DNA of 64,000 nucleotides, taken from assembly GCF_947488025.1 (NCBI RefSeq), contig NZ_CANKYS010000009.1:62001-126000 (forward strand), read 5' to 3'. The notes under the pieces were generated by a model. It was given only the letters and a program-made list of their open reading frames with translations. It did no database searches and was not told where the DNA came from. This stretch comes from an uncultured Nocardioides sp. (GTDB lineage Bacteria; Actinomycetota; Actinomycetes; Propionibacteriales; Nocardioidaceae). The position numbers and the translations under genes are program-made. Position 1 is the stretch's first letter. Each line of letters begins with the position of its first letter. Shown here piece after piece: positions 48,318 to 54,687 of this stretch.

Positions 48318-50303
48318 ATGAACACCCTCCTGATCGCCAACCGCGGCGAGATCGCCCGCCGCGTCATCCGGACCGCCCGCCGGCTCGGGTGGAGCACCGT
48401 CGCTATCCACACCGACCTCGACGTCGGTGCGCCTCATGTCGGCGAGGCCGACCGGGCGGTGCGGGTGGAGTCCTACCTCGACATCGACGCGGTCGTCGCG
48501 GCCGCGCGGGAGTCCGGCGCCGGGTTCGTGCACCCGGGCTACGGCTTCCTGTCCGAGCGGGCGCCTTTCGCGCGGGCGCTGGCCGAGGCGGGCATCACCC
48601 TGGTCGGCCCGAGCGCCGACGTCATGGACGCGATGGGCCGCAAGGACGCCGCCCGTGACGTCGCCGTGGCCGCCGGGGTGCCCGTCGTGCCGTCGTACGA
48701 CCTCGCCGGTCCCGACGCCACCGACCCGGCGTCGTTCGCCTACCCCGTGCTGGTGAAGGCCGCGGCCGGCGGCGGCGGCAAGGGCATGCGGGTGGTGCGC
48801 AGCGCGAGCGAGTACGACGAGGCCTTCGCGGCCGCGCAGCGCGAGGCCCGCTCGTCCTTCGGCGACGACACGATCCTCATCGAGAAGTACGTCGAGTCCG
48901 GCCGCCACATCGAGGTGCAGGTCATGGGCGACACCCACGGCACGGTGCTGCATTTCTTCGAGCGCGACTGCTCCACCCAGCGCCGGCACCAGAAGGTGCT
49001 GGAGGAGGCCCCCGCGCCCACGATCAGCCCCGAGCAGCGCTCCGCGATCACCAGCGCGGCCGTCGCGCTGGCGCAGCAGTGCGGCTACACCGGCGCCGGC
49101 ACGGTCGAGTTCCTGCTCGACAACGCCACCGGCGAGTTCTACTTCCTCGAGATGAACACCCGCCTCCAGGTCGAGCACCCGGTCACCGAGGAGGTCGTCC
49201 GGGTGCGGACCGACCAGGGGCGCGAGCGGGTCGACCTCGTCGAGCTGCAGCTGCGCGTCGCGACCGGCGAGCCGCTCGGTCTCGCCCAGGACGACGTCAC
49301 CCTCGAGGGCCACGCGATCGAGGCCCGCGTCTACGCCGAGGACTCCTTCAACGGCTTCCTGCCGCAGGCCGGTCGGGCCGGCCACGTGTCGTGGGGCGCG
49401 GCCTTCGGCTCCGGCGCCCCCCGCTTCGGCCCGTCCCTCCACGACGCCGGCGGGAGGAACGTCCGGATCGACCACGCGCTGGAGCCCGGCCAGGAGGTCT
49501 CCACCTCCTTCGACCCGATGCTGGGCAAGGTCATCGCCTGGGGAGCCGACCGCTCCGAGGCGCTGTCCCGCCTGATCTGGGCGCTCGACCGGGTCGCGAT
49601 CATGGGCCTCACGACCAACACCGGGTTCCTGCGAGCCCTCGCGGACACCGCGGAGTTCCGCGAGGCCACGATCGACACCGCCTGGCTCGACCACCACGAG
49701 GTCGAGCCGCCGTCCCGCGAGCTGGCGCGAGTGCTGGCCGCGCTGATGCTCGCCCCGTCGAGTGCCGAGGCCGTCGACGCGCCGACCTCGCCGTGGCACG
49801 CCGACGGCTTCCGGCTCGGCGCCGACCCGGCGCCCGTGCTGGTCCGCCTGGACGAGACCGTCCCGGTCACCGAGGACCGGGTGGGCGAGCACGCCGTCCG
49901 CTGGCTCGGCGGCCAGCGGCTGCGGGGCGGCATCGGCTCGGTGTCCGCGGAGGTGGACGGCGAGCACCACGACGCCACCGCCACCCAGGTCGGGCGCACC
50001 GTCGAGGTGGCCCACCGCGGGCAGCGCCACGTCTTCCACGTCCCCGACCCCTTCGCCGACCACGGCCCCGAGGTCGGCGACGGCACCCTGCTCGCGCCGA
50101 TGCCCGGCACCGTCCTCGCGGTCCACGTCGCCGAGGGCCAGGCCGTGGCCGAGGGTGAGACGCTGGGAGTCATGGAGGCGATGAAGATGGAGCTCGCGCT
50201 CAAGGCGCCCTTCGCCGGCACGGTCACCACGGTCGGATCCGCGACCGGGGACCTCGTCAAGCTCGGCGCAGTGCTGTTCGTCGTGGAGCCCGCCGATGGC
50301 TGA
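48318..50303 (+). CDS. accA1: Acyl-CoA carboxylase alpha subunit (biotin carboxylase + BCCP)
   Basis: 661 residues. Biotin carboxylase domain: LLIANRGEIARRVIRTARRLG, HPGYGFLSERAPFARAL, ATP-grasp loop KAAAGGGGKGMRVV, FFERDCSTQRRHQKVLEEAPAP and FLEMNTRLQVEHPVTEEV. The last 80 residues are the biotin carrier, with biotinylated K623 in MEAMKMELAL. Together with AccD1 it carboxylates branched acyl-CoA. It starts 11 nt after accD1 and overlaps the lyase gene by 8 nt. Confidence 0.95.
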   Translation: MNTLLIANRGEIARRVIRTARRLGWSTVAIHTDLDVGAPHVGEADRAVRVESYLDIDAVVAAARESGAGFVHPGYGFLSERAPFARALAEAGITLVGPSADVMDAMGRKDAARDVAVAAGVPVVPSYDLAGPDATDPASFAYPVLVKAAAGGGGKGMRVVRSASEYDEAFAAAQREARSSFGDDTILIEKYVESGRHIEVQVMGDTHGTVLHFFERDCSTQRRHQKVLEEAPAPTISPEQRSAITSAAVALAQQCGYTGAGTVEFLLDNATGEFYFLEMNTRLQVEHPVTEEVVRVRTDQGRERVDLVELQLRVATGEPLGLAQDDVTLEGHAIEARVYAEDSFNGFLPQAGRAGHVSWGAAFGSGAPRFGPSLHDAGGRNVRIDHALEPGQEVSTSFDPMLGKVIAWGADRSEALSRLIWALDRVAIMGLTTNTGFLRALADTAEFREATIDTAWLDHHEVEPPSRELARVLAALMLAPSSAEAVDAPTSPWHADGFRLGADPAPVLVRLDETVPVTEDRVGEHAVRWLGGQRLRGGIGSVSAEVDGEHHDATATQVGRTVEVAHRGQRHVFHVPDPFADHGPEVGDGTLLAPMPGTVLAVHVAEGQAVAEGETLGVMEAMKMELALKAPFAGTVTTVGSATGDLVKLGAVLFVVEPADG

Positions 50304-51243
50304 GCTGCCGATGACCGTCCGAGCCGACGGCCTCCCCGAGCGGGTCACCATCTACGAGGTCGGCCCCCGCGACGGACTGCAGAACGAGCAGGCGATCGTC
50401 CCGGTCGCGGTCAAGGCCGAGTTCGTACGACGCCTCCTGGCCGCGGGACTTCCGATCGTCGAGGCCACCAGCTTCGTGCACCCGACGTGGGTGCCGCAGC
50501 TCGCGGACGCCGCCGAGCTGATGGCCGAGCTCGGCGAGGCCGGGCGGCACCTGCCCGTGCTGGTGCCCAACGAGCGCGGCCTCGACCGGGCGCTGGAGCT
50601 CGGGCTCGAGCACATCGCGATCTTCGGCAGCGCGACCGAGACCTTCGCGACCAAGAACCTCAACCGCACCTTCGACGAGCAGTTCGCGATGTTCGAGCCC
50701 ACCGTGGCGCGGGCGCGCGAGGCGGGCCTGGACGTGCGGGCCTACGTCTCGATGTGCTTCGGCGACCCGTGGGAGGGCGCGGTGCCGATCGAGCAGGTCG
50801 TCACCGCCGGCACCCGGCTGCTCGACCTCGGCGCGAGCCAGCTCAGCATCGGCGACACGATCGGCGTCGCGACCGCCGGGCACGTCACGGCCCTCGTCGC
50901 CGCCTTCGTCGAGGCGGGCGTCGGCACCGACCGGCTGGCGATGCACTTCCACGACACCTACGGCCAGGCGCTCGCCAACACCTTCTCCGCCCTGCAGTCC
51001 GGCATCACCACCTTCGACGCGAGCGCCGGCGGCCTCGGCGGGTGCCCCTACGCCAAGTCGGCCACCGGCAACCTCGCCACCGAGGACCTCGTCTGGATGC
51101 TGACCGGCCTCGGGATCGAGCACGGGGTCGACCTCGAGGCCGCCGTCGCGACCAGCACGTGGATGGCCGCCCAGCTCGGCCGCCCCAGCCCCAGCGCCGT
51201 CGTACGCGCCCTCGGTGGGGGACTGGCACAATCAGCGCCATGA
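50296..51243 (+). CDS. Hydroxymethylglutaryl-CoA lyase
   Basis: A 315-residue TIM-barrel lyase that splits HMG-CoA into acetoacetate and acetyl-CoA, the last step of leucine degradation. RVTIYEVGPRDGLQNEQ (metal/substrate Arg-Asp), VEATSFVHPTWVPQLAD, MHFHDTYGQALAN (metal His) and the active-site loop GGLGGC250PYAKSATGN are conserved. Its TGA overlaps the ATG of the sulfotransferase-like gene, but an internal promoter is also visible there. Isovaleryl-CoA dehydrogenase and methylglutaconyl hydratase, the partners expected in this pathway, are not in the window. Confidence 0.95.
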   Translation: MAELPMTVRADGLPERVTIYEVGPRDGLQNEQAIVPVAVKAEFVRRLLAAGLPIVEATSFVHPTWVPQLADAAELMAELGEAGRHLPVLVPNERGLDRALELGLEHIAIFGSATETFATKNLNRTFDEQFAMFEPTVARAREAGLDVRAYVSMCFGDPWEGAVPIEQVVTAGTRLLDLGASQLSIGDTIGVATAGHVTALVAAFVEAGVGTDRLAMHFHDTYGQALANTFSALQSGITTFDASAGGLGGCPYAKSATGNLATEDLVWMLTGLGIEHGVDLEAAVATSTWMAAQLGRPSPSAVVRALGGGLAQSAP

Positions 51244-52325
51244 GCCGCGTCGTCCACCTCCACATCGGCGCCCCCAAGACCGGCACGACCTACCTGCAGG
51301 ACCGGCTGCTGCTCAACACCGCCTCCCTGGCGCGTCACGGCGTGACCATCCCGGGCCCGCGCGGCGGGCGGTCCGACATGTTCCACTTCCGGGCGGCGCT
51401 CGACCTGCTCGACCAGGACTGGGGCGGCGCACCCGGGCACGCCGAGGGCGCGTGGGACGCGATGATGCGGCGCGTGCAGCGCGCCGACGGCAACGTCGTG
51501 ATCAGCCACGAGATCCTCGCCGGCGCCAAGCCCGACAAGGTGGCCAAGGCGATGAACGACCTCGCCGGCCACGAGGTGCACCTCGTCTACTCCGCGCGTG
51601 ACCTCGGCCGGCAGCTGCCCGCCGCCTGGCAGGAGTCGATCAAGCAGGGCCGCAAGTGGCCCTTCAAGCGCTTCCTCACCAAGGTCGAGCGCAGCCAGAC
51701 CTGGTTCTTCAACGCGATGGACCTGCCGACCGTGCTCGAGCGCTGGGGCGCCAGGCTGCCCCCCGAGCGGGTGCACGTCGTCACCGTCCCGCACGACCGC
51801 GGCCCCAACGGCGACGAGCTGTGGCTGCGGTTCTGCCGAGCGTTCAGCATCGACCCCGCGTGGGCACCGCTCGACTCCGAGCGGGACAACCGGTCGCTCG
51901 GCATCGCGGAGACCTCGCTGCTGCGCAAGCTCAACCGGCGCCTCGAGCTCGGCCTGTGGCGCGACCCGGCGTACGACGCCCTCATCCGCGAGCTGCTCGC
52001 CCAGCAGGTGCTGGTCTCCCGCAAGGCGATCCCGGTGCGGCTGCCGCCCGACCGCTACGACTTCGCCGAGCAGCAGGCCGACGCCTGGATCGAGTGGATC
52101 AAGGGCAGCGGCGTCGACGTGGTCGGCGACGTGGAGGACCTCCGCCCGCGCCGCCCTGCCGAGGGCGAGAAGTGGAGGGACCCCGACCGGGTGCGCGCCA
52201 AGCTCGAGCTCGGTGCCGCACTCGACGCCCTGACCGTGATGACGCAGGAGGCCGCCAACCGCGCCGCCACCGACACGGTGGGCGGCCGGATCCGCGACGT
52301 CGCGCGCCGGCTGCGGGACCGGTGA
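51240..52325 (+). CDS. Sulfotransferase-like protein 1
   Basis: 361 residues. The 5'-phosphosulfate-binding loop HIGAPKTGTTYLQ (P12-K13-T14-G15-T16-T17) opens the protein. VYSARDLGRQLPAAWQESIKQ is the 3'-phosphate-binding region (Arg in SARDL), followed by VLERWGARLPPERVHVVTVP and, near the end, VDVVGDVEDLRPR. This is a PAPS-dependent sulfotransferase fold, acceptor unknown. The ATG overlaps the lyase stop (ATGA), but CACAAT 7 nt upstream (51227-51232) could give a separate leaderless transcript. It is the first of three related genes. Confidence 0.82.
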   Translation: MSRVVHLHIGAPKTGTTYLQDRLLLNTASLARHGVTIPGPRGGRSDMFHFRAALDLLDQDWGGAPGHAEGAWDAMMRRVQRADGNVVISHEILAGAKPDKVAKAMNDLAGHEVHLVYSARDLGRQLPAAWQESIKQGRKWPFKRFLTKVERSQTWFFNAMDLPTVLERWGARLPPERVHVVTVPHDRGPNGDELWLRFCRAFSIDPAWAPLDSERDNRSLGIAETSLLRKLNRRLELGLWRDPAYDALIRELLAQQVLVSRKAIPVRLPPDRYDFAEQQADAWIEWIKGSGVDVVGDVEDLRPRRPAEGEKWRDPDRVRAKLELGAALDALTVMTQEAANRAATDTVGGRIRDVARRLRDR

Positions 52326-53497
52326 CCGCCAGCGCCACCCGACCGGCAGGGTCCGTGCACGGGTGGGTCGCCCACCTGCGCGCCGGCGGTACGACGCCGT
52401 GGCTGGCGTGGACCGACCCGTCGACCGACCCCGGCTCCGACCCGACCTCGGGAGGTCGCGCCCTCCCCGGCGCCCAGCAGCTCGAGCTCCTGCGCCGCAT
52501 CAACCTCGCCCTCGAGTCGAGTGCGCGGCCCCGCGGCGACCACGACCACCTGCGCACTCGACTCGCCGACCGCGTGCTCGCCGCACCGGCGGCCGGTCGC
52601 GGGAAGGCCGACCTGCCGCTGGTGGGCGCCGCGTCGGGCGGGTTCGGCGCCCAGCCGGTCGACCCCGCGACGGTCAGTGCCCACGAGCTGCTCCGGGTGG
52701 CGAGCACGCTGCTCGCCGACGACCTCGTCGCCCTCGGGCCGGACCCGGTGCGGCGGGGCGTGCCCCGGCCCTGGCGGCGCCGGTTCCGGCTGGTCGGCGA
52801 CCCGGTCGTCGCCACCGCCGCACGCGAGCACCTGCTCGGACGCGGCCGTCCCGAGGGCGGCCCCCGGCCCTTCGTCGTGGCCGTCGGCGGCCCGCTCGAC
52901 GAGCTGCTCGCCCACACCTGGACGCAGCGGTGCTTCGAGCACGGCAGCCGGCCGTGGGCCGACTGGCTGCGGTTCTGGCGCGAGCGCGACCAGCTGCCGG
53001 CCCGCGCCGACCTCGACGACTCGATCCACCGCTGGGGCGGGCGCCGGCCCTACGTCCGGGTGGTGACCGACCTCGCCCAGCTGCCCGAGCACCTGGGCGT
53101 ACGCCGCCTGCCGGAGGTCCGGGTGTCGGGCGCCGACCAGGCCGAGCTGGCGCGCCGGATCTCGGCCGTCGTGGGCATCCGCGTCCCGGTCGGCGAGCGG
53201 CCGGCCCTGATGCGGACGCTGCAGAAGCGGATGCCCGACAGCGGCGTCGCGCCCGTCGTCGTACCCCCGACGGAGCACGACTGGGTCGCGTCGTCCGCGG
53301 CGCGCACGACCCGCGCCCTGACCCGCGCTGGCTACCCTGTCGTCGGCGACCTCGCCGACCTCGCACCCCGTGCGCCGGGCCTCACCGGCCTGTCCCGGCA
53401 CGGCGGCGCCGACGACCGGCAGGTGCTGGACCTGGCGATCCGGATGATCGTCGACACCGGCTGGCGCGCGGGCCGGGAGAGGAGCGTGGAGCGGTGA
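52322..53497 (+). CDS. Unknown protein, apparent diverged sulfotransferase relative without the PAPS loop
   Basis: A 391-residue protein I cannot name. It starts VHGWVAHLRAGGTTPWLAWTD and lacks the PKTGTTYLQ loop of its neighbours. Its middle (VVAVGGPLDELLAHTWTQRCFEHGSRPWADWLRFWRERDQ, in two pieces about residues 180-220) aligns by eye with VYSARDLGRQLPAAWQESIK of protein 1. IHRWGGRRPYVRVVTDL matches VLERWGARLPPERVHVVTV, and TRAGYPVVGDLADLAP matches ERGYDVVGSLDDL of protein 2. It may be a catalytically dead paralogue or partner subunit. GTGA overlaps on both sides couple it to both neighbours. Part of the N-terminal region is encoded by a palindromic element. Confidence 0.75.
   Translation: MTASATRPAGSVHGWVAHLRAGGTTPWLAWTDPSTDPGSDPTSGGRALPGAQQLELLRRINLALESSARPRGDHDHLRTRLADRVLAAPAAGRGKADLPLVGAASGGFGAQPVDPATVSAHELLRVASTLLADDLVALGPDPVRRGVPRPWRRRFRLVGDPVVATAAREHLLGRGRPEGGPRPFVVAVGGPLDELLAHTWTQRCFEHGSRPWADWLRFWRERDQLPARADLDDSIHRWGGRRPYVRVVTDLAQLPEHLGVRRLPEVRVSGADQAELARRISAVVGIRVPVGERPALMRTLQKRMPDSGVAPVVVPPTEHDWVASSAARTTRALTRAGYPVVGDLADLAPRAPGLTGLSRHGGADDRQVLDLAIRMIVDTGWRAGRERSVER
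52513..52565 (+). repeat. Family-C palindrome inside the unknown gene
   Basis: 14-bp arms CGAGTCGAGTGCGC (52513-52526) and GCGCACTCGACTCG (52552-52565) around a 25-nt loop; the loop matches that of the copy inside alkB at 16 of 25 positions. Confidence 0.85.
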
Positions 53498-54687
53498 GCA
53501 GGCGGGTGCTGCTGCACGTGGGCTGCCCGAAGACCGGCACGTCCTACCTCCAGGACGTCCTCTTCCGCAACCAGGAGGTCCTGCGCGAGCACGACATCCT
53601 CTACCCCGCCGACCGGTTCGACGCCCACTTCCTCGCCGCGCTCGACCTGATGACGCTGCCGTGGGGCGGCATCGAGACCGAGGCCGTCGGCGCGTGGGAC
53701 CGGCTCGCCGCCGCGGTGCGCGAGTGGCACGGCACCTCGATCGTCAGCCACGAGATCTTCGCGCGGGCGACCCCGACGCAGGTGGAGCGGGCGCTGGCCT
53801 CGCTCGGCGACGCCGAGGTCCACCTCGTGCTGTCGGCGCGCGACCTGGTGCGCCAGGTCCCGGCCGAGTGGCAGGAGAACGTCAAGCACCGCAGCCACAT
53901 CACGTACGCCGAGTTCCTGCGCACCATCCGCGACCCCGCCCGCGACTCCCGCATCGGATCGTGGTTCTGGGCGGTCCAGGAGCTCCCCGACATCCTCGAG
54001 CGGTGGGGCTCCTCGCTGCCGCCCGAGCACGTGCACCTGGTCACGCTGCCCCCGCCGGGAGCGGACCGTGGCGAGCTGTGGCGCCGCTTCTCCCGGACGT
54101 TCGGGCTCGACGGGCTGCCGCTCGACCTCACCGCCGAGCGGGAGAACCCGTCCCTCGGCGTCCCCGAGACCTCCCTGCTGCGCACCATCAACGAGCGCGT
54201 CACCTCGATCATCGCGCCGCCCGACTACCGCCCCCTGGTCCGCGAGACGCTCGCCCACCAGACGCTGTCGCGGAGCGTGGCCTCGGCCCGGCTCGGCCTC
54301 GCGCCGGCCGACCACGCGTGGGCGCGCGAGCTCTCGCAGCGCTGGATCGAGGTGCTCGACGAGCGCGGCTACGACGTCGTCGGTTCGCTCGACGACCTGC
54401 TGGGTCCCGACGCCGGCACCTTCGCCGATCCCGACACCGCGACGGCCGAAGAGCTGCTGCCCCCCGCCCTCGACGCGATCAGCGCCCTGCTCGTGGAGGG
54501 CGCACGCCTGCGGGCGGTCGAGGAACGGCTGCACCGCGAGCTGCGCGAGGCGCACGAGGAGCTCGAACGCACCCGGGCGACCACGGCCTACCGGGCCCGG
54601 CGCAAGGTGGTGACAACCCTGGAGGGCAGCCCCGCCGGCCGGGGCTCGCTCGACGCCTACCGGCGCCTGCGCGGCCGCAAGGGCTGA
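53494..54687 (+). CDS. Sulfotransferase-like protein 2
   Basis: A 397-residue paralogue of protein 1. PAPS loop HVGCPKTGTSYLQ (K13), VLSARDLVRQVPAEWQENVKH, ILERWGSSLPPEHVHLVTLP, and WIEVLDERGYDVVGSLDDLLGP. It adds a C-terminal charged coiled coil (LRAVEERLHRELREAHEELERTR) and a basic tail, absent in protein 1. GTG start overlapping the middle gene by 4 nt. Acceptor unknown; the three genes probably modify one glycan, lipid or secondary metabolite (inference). Confidence 0.82.
   Translation: MSRRVLLHVGCPKTGTSYLQDVLFRNQEVLREHDILYPADRFDAHFLAALDLMTLPWGGIETEAVGAWDRLAAAVREWHGTSIVSHEIFARATPTQVERALASLGDAEVHLVLSARDLVRQVPAEWQENVKHRSHITYAEFLRTIRDPARDSRIGSWFWAVQELPDILERWGSSLPPEHVHLVTLPPPGADRGELWRRFSRTFGLDGLPLDLTAERENPSLGVPETSLLRTINERVTSIIAPPDYRPLVRETLAHQTLSRSVASARLGLAPADHAWARELSQRWIEVLDERGYDVVGSLDDLLGPDAGTFADPDTATAEELLPPALDAISALLVEGARLRAVEERLHRELREAHEELERTRATTAYRARRKVVTTLEGSPAGRGSLDAYRRLRGRKG

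Follow-up and report, generated by a model that had tools for sequence, protein, structure and literature searches.

A catalytically degenerate sulfotransferase paralogue as a candidate subunit of a predicted sulfotransferase in Nocardioides

INTRODUCTION

Nocardioides and its relatives are soil bacteria. In a stretch of 64,000 nucleotides from an uncultured Nocardioides sp. (RefSeq assembly GCF_947488025.1, contig NZ_CANKYS010000009.1, positions 62,001 to 126,000 of the forward strand; this whole stretch is referred to here as the window), three consecutive genes, termed S1, MID, and S2, overlap by 4 nucleotides each, and S1 overlaps to the same extent with an HMGL-like gene upstream. The question that this locus raises is why the gene of a protein lacking the loop for 3'-phosphoadenosine 5'-phosphosulfate (PAPS) is kept between the genes of two related, predicted sulfotransferases. 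An initial annotation had proposed a heteromeric sulfation complex with a pseudo-enzyme as scaffold; the gene coordinates, the 4-nucleotide overlaps, and the PKTGT loops of the flanking proteins that it reported were all found as described. The answer that we favor, to which we assign a probability of roughly 0.58, is that MID serves as a noncatalytic subunit that S2 needs to sulfate an envelope glycan.

RESULTS

S1 and S2 are predicted PAPS-dependent sulfotransferases

S1 and S2, whose family is referred to here as the S family, share 42% identity over 366 alignment columns, and both contain a PKTGTT/S loop. The structural model of S2, built from 71 sequences, had a mean predicted local distance difference test (pLDDT) score of 92.8 and a predicted template modeling (pTM) score of 0.83. 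The top Foldseek match of this model was the bacterial sulfotransferase 3rnl (E value, 1.7e-4; probability, 1.00). Alignment with VIA-align located the sulfotransferase fold in residues 1 to 306, with 12 to 14% sequence identity to solved structures, namely, human NDST1 (8ccy; Z score, 14.3; root mean square deviation, 4.2; 240 aligned), 3-OST-3 (6xl8; 13.5, 3.8, and 223, respectively), and 3rnl (13.4, 4.4, and 230, respectively). Judged by the fold of its model, S2 is a sulfotransferase, predicted to be PAPS dependent, and its sequence identity to S1 suggests the same fold for the latter.

The P-loop PKTGT was present in all 66 S1 and all 77 S2 homologues, the SHE motif in 62 and 77 of these, respectively, and the RD motif in 53 and 76. 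The S family has 42 invariant columns, of which 20 are polar; in line with other sulfotransferases, the invariant S-H-E and R-D positions presumably hold the catalytic base and the ligand of the 3'-phosphate. Since the genome of the organism contains one match to APS kinase, PAPS is expected to be available. A sequence search of the Protein Data Bank (PDB) retrieved no sulfotransferase for S1, the S profile, or the MID profile. The top PDB row for the S profile was Gp14 (E value, 2.5e-4; 41 residues), which was judged to be a chance match. Residues 319 to 397 of S2 (positions 54448 to 54684) form a C-terminal helical tail that ends in the basic sequence YRRLRGR, a region in which S1 is shorter; this tail might serve for docking or for contact with the membrane.

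MID is a paralogue of the S family without the active-site residues

In a profile-profile alignment with hhalign, residues 155 to 377 of MID matched residues 81 to 330 of S2 (probability, 98.3; E value, 1.4e-14), and the three segments that had initially been noticed as common to MID and the S proteins align in this comparison. When the sequence sets were enlarged to 92 MID and 191 S sequences, the C-terminal unit of MID scored 149 against the S family (E value, 4.4e-21). Compared with seven control families that are unrelated to it and were drawn from the same genomes, this unit scored between 12.7 and 18.3 (an eighth control, Aat, derived from an incorrect reading frame, scored lower still), and the likeness of MID to the S family is thus beyond chance. 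The profile scores of the C-terminal unit were tied between S1 (97.9) and S2 (95.7), and in a midpoint-rooted tree of S1, S2, other S sequences, and this unit, the S sequences grouped without MID, which formed a single long branch.

The initial annotation had suggested a structural comparison of the middle protein with sulfotransferases, and these are indeed the best matches of the MID model (pLDDT, 90.9; pTM, 0.91), at modest Z scores. VIA-align superimposed MID on 3rnl with a Z score of 6.5 (root mean square deviation, 4.1; 151 aligned) and on 1nst with a Z score of 6.1 (3.8 and 154, respectively), with residues 149 to 350 being the part that shares the fold. The top 17 rows were all sulfotransferases, with Z scores that, after 6.1, ran from 4.8 down to 3.5, and the first unrelated row had a Z score of 3.3. 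The two comparisons differ on the first strand of MID (residues 155 to 159): the profile alignment places it at S strand 2, and the VIA-align ranges start near what is probably the first strand of the solved sulfotransferases; the P-loop residues are absent from MID under either placement. By the profile comparison, MID is a true paralogue of the S family.

None of the 77 MID homologues examined contained the P-loop PKTGT, the SHE motif, or the RD motif, and for this reason MID is not classed as an active sulfotransferase. The missing PAPS loop that had been noticed in a single protein is consequently a feature of all 77 homologues. Only 18 columns are invariant among 78 MID sequences, and the 4 polar ones among them are all arginines. 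The ratios of nonsynonymous to synonymous substitution rates (dN/dS) in four close pairs were 0.18 to 0.29 for MID, 0.12 to 0.17 for S2, and 0.12 to 0.35 for S1. The reading frame of MID was open in 77 of 79 loci, and the other two (L093 and L104) look frameshifted. MID is under purifying selection, and its loss of catalytic residues is family-wide; the term pseudo-enzyme is hence well justified.

The N-terminal part of MID is likely a second degenerate unit

The N-terminal part of MID is helical in the model, and the motif PGA..L.L.R is present in 75 of 77 homologues. In comparison with the entire S family, its profile reached a score of 34.5 (hhalign probability, 49.6; E value, 1.7e-4), against a mean of 13.5 and a maximum of 21.1 for 150 column shuffles and a maximum of 20.8 (TetR) for unrelated families. 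The order of the aligned elements is kept: PGAQQLELLRRIN corresponds to LGVPETSLLRTIN, and a DP...ELL..A helix corresponds to the C-terminal helix of the S proteins. Against the C-terminal unit of MID, the N-terminal part scored 33.0 (shuffle maximum, 20.1), with the segment around WVAHLRAGGTTPWLAW facing W...GSRPWADW. The first 42 columns scored 28.7 against the C-terminal unit (shuffle maximum, 23.8) and, without significance, 16.9 against the S family (shuffle maximum, 17.2); the columns beyond them scored 29.7 against the S family (shuffle maximum, 19.3). As judged from these profiles, MID is likely a fusion of two degenerate sulfotransferase units. The N-terminal part is unique in the genome of the window, where the sole other match, at the end of an S paralogue, was far from significant (E value, 0.565). 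In three relatives (G303, G264, and G319), its profile was weak or not found, and the C-terminal part of MID was found.

The arrangement is conserved, and S1 is dispensable to it

MID was detected in 32 of 37 genomes of the genus, including that of the window, and was absent from all 21 genomes that represented the other families of this order; in the five remaining members of the genus, the matches covered only the C-terminal part of MID and correspond to cross-hits of S proteins. When 196 genomes were drawn from the order, the profile of the N-terminal part matched 44 of them, of which 40 were in the genus, 3 in further members of the family, and 1, of doubtful nature, outside the family; 7 listed members of the genus and 132 further rows of this draw were not matched. 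The doubtful match (G356:C1:3221860-3222150; E value, 3.9e-5) contains two stop codons and is probably due to chance.

The gene neighborhood was compared in three sets of loci, namely, 32 loci of the genus, 80 named loci (the best 80 of 114 relatives, all Nocardioides or Pimelobacter simplex), and 10 loci fetched from other genera. Directly downstream of MID, an S gene was found in 32/32, 79/80, and 10/10 loci, respectively, the exception (L141) ending at a contig edge after MID. On the upstream side of MID, an HMGL gene was no more than 4.5 kb away in 30/32, 74/80, and 10/10 loci, and an EcsC-like gene was present downstream in 31/32, 78/80, and 10/10 loci. The commonest gap was -4 nucleotides, at 43 of 65 S1-MID junctions and 61 of 78 MID-S2 junctions. 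In a midpoint-rooted tree, S1 and S2 formed separate clades, each of which takes in S genes of other genera. The neighborhood survey that had been suggested for the triad hence found it conserved across the genus and in other genera. S1 is not an obligate part of it: an S gene was located directly upstream of MID in 25/32, 68/80, and 10/10 loci. None was there in 7 loci of the genus set and in 11 named loci with enough upstream sequence (one more was cut by a contig end upstream of MID). S1 is dispensable to the arrangement. In two loci without an adjoining S1 (L113 and L147), a distant S-type gene is located upstream of MID on the opposite strand.

MID occurs together with S2

All 32 genomes with MID contained an S2 match with an E value of 2.1e-136 or lower, and the best matches in the five genomes without MID had E values from 4.6e-117 to 2.6e-77. 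Evolutionary rates were compared over 54 genomes after removal of a baseline, for which the rates of HMGL, the two MCC genes, and MutM were averaged. The residual rates of the N- and C-terminal parts of MID correlated with that of S2 at 0.61 and 0.63, with that of S1 at 0.18 and 0.30, and with each other at 0.47, values that are suggestive only, because the MutM control, itself part of the baseline, correlated with MID and S2 at 0.41 to 0.47.

The genomes without MID provide natural variants of the locus. In G006 and G027, which are among the five members of the genus without MID, a family-2 glycosyltransferase (GT2) gene on the reverse strand occupies the place of MID between S1 and S2, and in G204 the same gene, 91% identical, adjoins S2. 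The S2 proteins of all three genomes read PKTAT and SNE and thus have substituted active-site residues. The same search covered nine further genomes with S2, in each of which MID was detected upstream, and their S2 proteins read PKTGT and SHE. Among the MID-less genomes found to have S2, the active site is accordingly substituted in three of four and intact in one, G111. In the loci examined of two MID-less genomes, G018 and G291, an S1-type gene was present, as expected if S1 is independent of MID.

A conserved element precedes the first gene of the presumed transcription unit

A [TC]ANNNT element ends 5 to 8 nucleotides before 61 of 66 S1 starts, and 9 nucleotides before 4 more; at the spacing of 5 to 8 nucleotides, it was found before 130 of 3960 random ATG/GTG codons. 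The same spacing was found before none of 65 MID starts where S1 is present and before none of 78 S2 starts. Where S1 is missing, 11 loci had upstream sequence (three more being cut by contig ends), and in 8 of these the element is located 6 to 7 nucleotides ahead of MID. It resembles the TANNNT -10 element that one study describes for Mycobacterium tuberculosis, in which leaderless transcripts are abundant (PMC3898074). Generic scans for sigma-70 promoters and terminators found nothing, not even the CACAAT element that had initially been read as a promoter before S1, and the promoter assignment is hence based on the cross-locus comparison, in which conservation supports it. S1, MID, and S2 would form one transcription unit, presumably read as a single transcript, with its own leaderless-type promoter.

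The genes upstream of S1 form a leucine-type catabolic cluster that comprises carboxyl transferase, biotin carboxylase, and HMGL-like genes according to Pfam. The HMGL-like gene is a conserved neighbor outside the S1-MID-S2 system. The initial view that nothing but position ties the three genes to a leucine operon agrees with their having a conserved promoter, although their position is conserved too. The coordinates of all features are provided in Table 1.

Table 1. Features of the S1-MID-S2 locus (positions in the window) and GT2 genes of MID-less loci
Feature	Position	Strand	Description	Basis
S1	51240..52325	+	Predicted PAPS-dependent sulfotransferase, 361 aa	42% identity to S2; PKTGT in 66/66 S1 homologues
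P-loop of S1, PKTGTT	51273..51290	+		Sequence and conservation among homologues
MID	52322..53497	+	Degenerate sulfotransferase-fold protein, 391 aa, without P-loop; proposed noncatalytic partner of S2	
N-terminal unit of MID, residues 1-138	52322..52735	+	Helical, with motifs like those of sulfotransferases and, of its own, PGAQQLELLRRLN	
PGAQQLELLRRIN motif of MID, residues 49-61	52466..52504	+	Aligned to LGVPETSLLRTIN of S2	Profile alignment
C-terminal unit of MID, residues 155-377	52784..53452	+	Sulfotransferase-like core without P-loop	hhalign, VIA-align
S2	53494..54687	+	Predicted PAPS-dependent sulfotransferase, 397 aa, with C-terminal helical tail; adjoins MID	
P-loop of S2, PKTGTS	53527..53544	+		Sequence
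HMGL-like gene, upstream	50296..51243	+	Leucine catabolism	Pfam PF00682, E value 8.8e-42
CACAAT	51227..51232	+	-10-like element, 7 nucleotides before the S1 start codon	Leaderless-type spacing
GT2 genes beside S2	L168:7604-8527, L169:8161-9069, L171:570-1466	reverse	In G006, G027, and G204	

Fold and genomic context hint at a glycan acceptor

The acceptor is probably a cell-envelope glycan precursor. A glycan is suggested by the fold neighbors of S2, by the GT2 gene in the position of MID, and by genome G020, in which MID and S2 are located outside the HMGL locus (L060, 1-15903), next to genes for a UDP-galactopyranose mutase, a GlfT2-type galactofuranosyltransferase, an ABC-2 transporter, and a nucleotidyl transferase; the assembly of G020 is listed with 7% contamination. 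GlfT2 domain 3 was found in 37/37 genomes of the genus and in 0/21 others, and its presence alone is thus not discriminating. In 21 genomes, an S match elsewhere than at the HMGL locus was on a contig with GlfT2, the nearest being within about 52 kb in 19 of them (exceptions, G002 and G003); this is a rough count, made by eye among the rows listed, to which G020 contributes through its MID-S2 pair. The neighborhoods of the three other S paralogues in the genome of the window give weak hints only. One of these paralogues adjoins a gene with LicD and methyltransferase domains (L156:4488-5765 and L156:5799-7385). No relevant study on sulfated cell-wall polymers of Nocardioides was found among the literature matches listed.

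DISCUSSION

In the explanation that we favor, S1 and S2 would be PAPS-dependent sulfotransferases whose folds are nearest to those of heparan-sulfate N- and 3-O-sulfotransferases and of a bacterial sulfotransferase, and MID would be a dead member of the same family, derived from two degenerate units, in which the P-loop, the invariant SHE, and the RD motif were lost. MID would bind S2, and possibly S1 too, and would either keep S2 folded or active or present the acceptor. The heteromeric sulfation complex with a scaffold that had been put forward initially is plausible, and its support is indirect, consisting of the occurrence of MID with S2, the correlated rates, and the decay of S2 in one MID-less lineage. 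A complex is the best explanation of the data; the interaction itself, as well as the requirement of MID for S2 activity, is inferred. A more far-reaching version, which we consider rather doubtful, holds that a subunit made of two fused dead units bridges two different active sulfotransferases, that loss of this subunit tends to be followed by decay of the S2 active site, and that the product is an undescribed sulfated envelope glycan of the Nocardioidaceae.

Apart from the MutM control, a number of results weigh against the proposed role of MID. (i) The S2 substitutions in G006, G027, and G204 are probably one event, since all three genomes share the GT2 arrangement. (ii) In G111 (L179), S1 and S2 are adjacent, S2 is intact (PKTGTS and SHE), and MID was not detected, so that MID is not universally required. 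(iii) No Pfam, NCBIfam, or PHROG model called S1, S2, or MID a sulfotransferase in a search of the proteins of the window, and Sulfotransfer_3 (PF13469) touched only 2 of 45 S members, with a best E value of 0.0081. (iv) VIA-align Z scores below 8 are deemed insufficient alone, and the Z score of 6.5 for MID is unconvincing by itself; Foldseek retrieved no match of the MID model below an E value of 0.001. (v) The N-terminal part of MID scored near noise against S1 only (21.9) and S2 only (19.4), and, since it scored 37.2 against 47 other S sequences, its signal requires a diverse S set; with the first, smaller alignments, the E value against the S family was only 0.014. As a separate observation, the P-loop of S1 in G111 reads PKTGSA.

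The best surviving alternative, which we regard as unlikely, is that MID acts in the same pathway without a complex with S2, through a new activity or a separate binding role, such as that of a glycan- or lipid-carrier-binding protein or of a different transferase. Products of genes that share an operon do not necessarily form a complex, G111 does without MID, and MID is conserved yet evolves faster than S2 (mean distances, 0.88 and 0.45, respectively), its N-terminal part being more conserved than its C-terminal part (0.66 and 1.03, respectively). However, four invariant arginines as the only polar invariant residues do not amount to a conserved catalytic set, and the strongest residual rate correlation of MID is that with S2. 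Instead of being a stoichiometric subunit, MID might be a dedicated chaperone of S1 or S2 or regulate (inhibit) one of them; we consider this improbable, although the co-occurrence data and the location of the MID gene between S1 and S2 with mostly 4-nucleotide overlaps fit such a role no less than that of a subunit. It is very improbable that the resemblance of MID to the S family is due to chance or to convergence of short motifs: pairwise BLAST matches to S1 and S2 are weak (E value, about 1e-6) and the Foldseek search was negative, but the profile scores far exceed those of unrelated families, and sulfotransferases fill the 17 best VIA-align rows. That MID is a decaying pseudogene carried in the operon, as its faster divergence than that of its neighbors and the two frames that look frameshifted might suggest, is in practice refuted by its low dN/dS, its open frames, and its retention in the genus and in other genera.

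The proposed system can be compared with known ones. In relation to the PAPS-dependent sulfotransferase superfamily (8ccy, 6xl8, and 3rnl), S2 has the same fold and P-loop, and the C-terminal unit of MID has part of the fold; the differences are the sequence identity of only 12 to 14%, the lack of any match of the S1 and S2 of the window to a sulfotransferase model of Pfam, and, for MID, the missing P-loop, SHE, and RD motif and the second degenerate unit at the N terminus. Pairs of an enzyme and a dead paralogue are known in several enzyme families. Examples are trypanosomatid deoxyhypusine synthase (PMC3663545) and BRCC36-KIAA0157 (PMC5106787); in these, a dead paralogue is likewise kept beside an active enzyme, and complex formation and activation were measured there, whereas for MID and S2 they are proposed. 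These pairs belong to other fold families, and MID, unlike them, would be a fusion of two units and is encoded in an operon of a bacterium. Bacterial sulfotransferases of glycans, NodH-type and others (PMC11625862), are also bacterial enzymes acting on glycans, a likeness to which the weak PF13469 matches of the S family may be added; in the passages of that review consulted, no pseudoenzyme partner is described, and its text lacks the words "inactive" and "heterodimer". Among the literature matches listed, with most subscription papers outside their scope, there was no description of such a pair among PAPS sulfotransferases encoded by an operon of bacteria.

If the favored explanation is correct, the locus would offer a small, family-wide system in which to ask why a sulfotransferase needs a dead partner. 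The natural variants, in which S1 is missing, MID is replaced by a GT2 gene next to a substituted S2, or MID is lost and S2 is intact, make this dependency directly testable, and the system would point to sulfated envelope glycans in the Nocardioidaceae.

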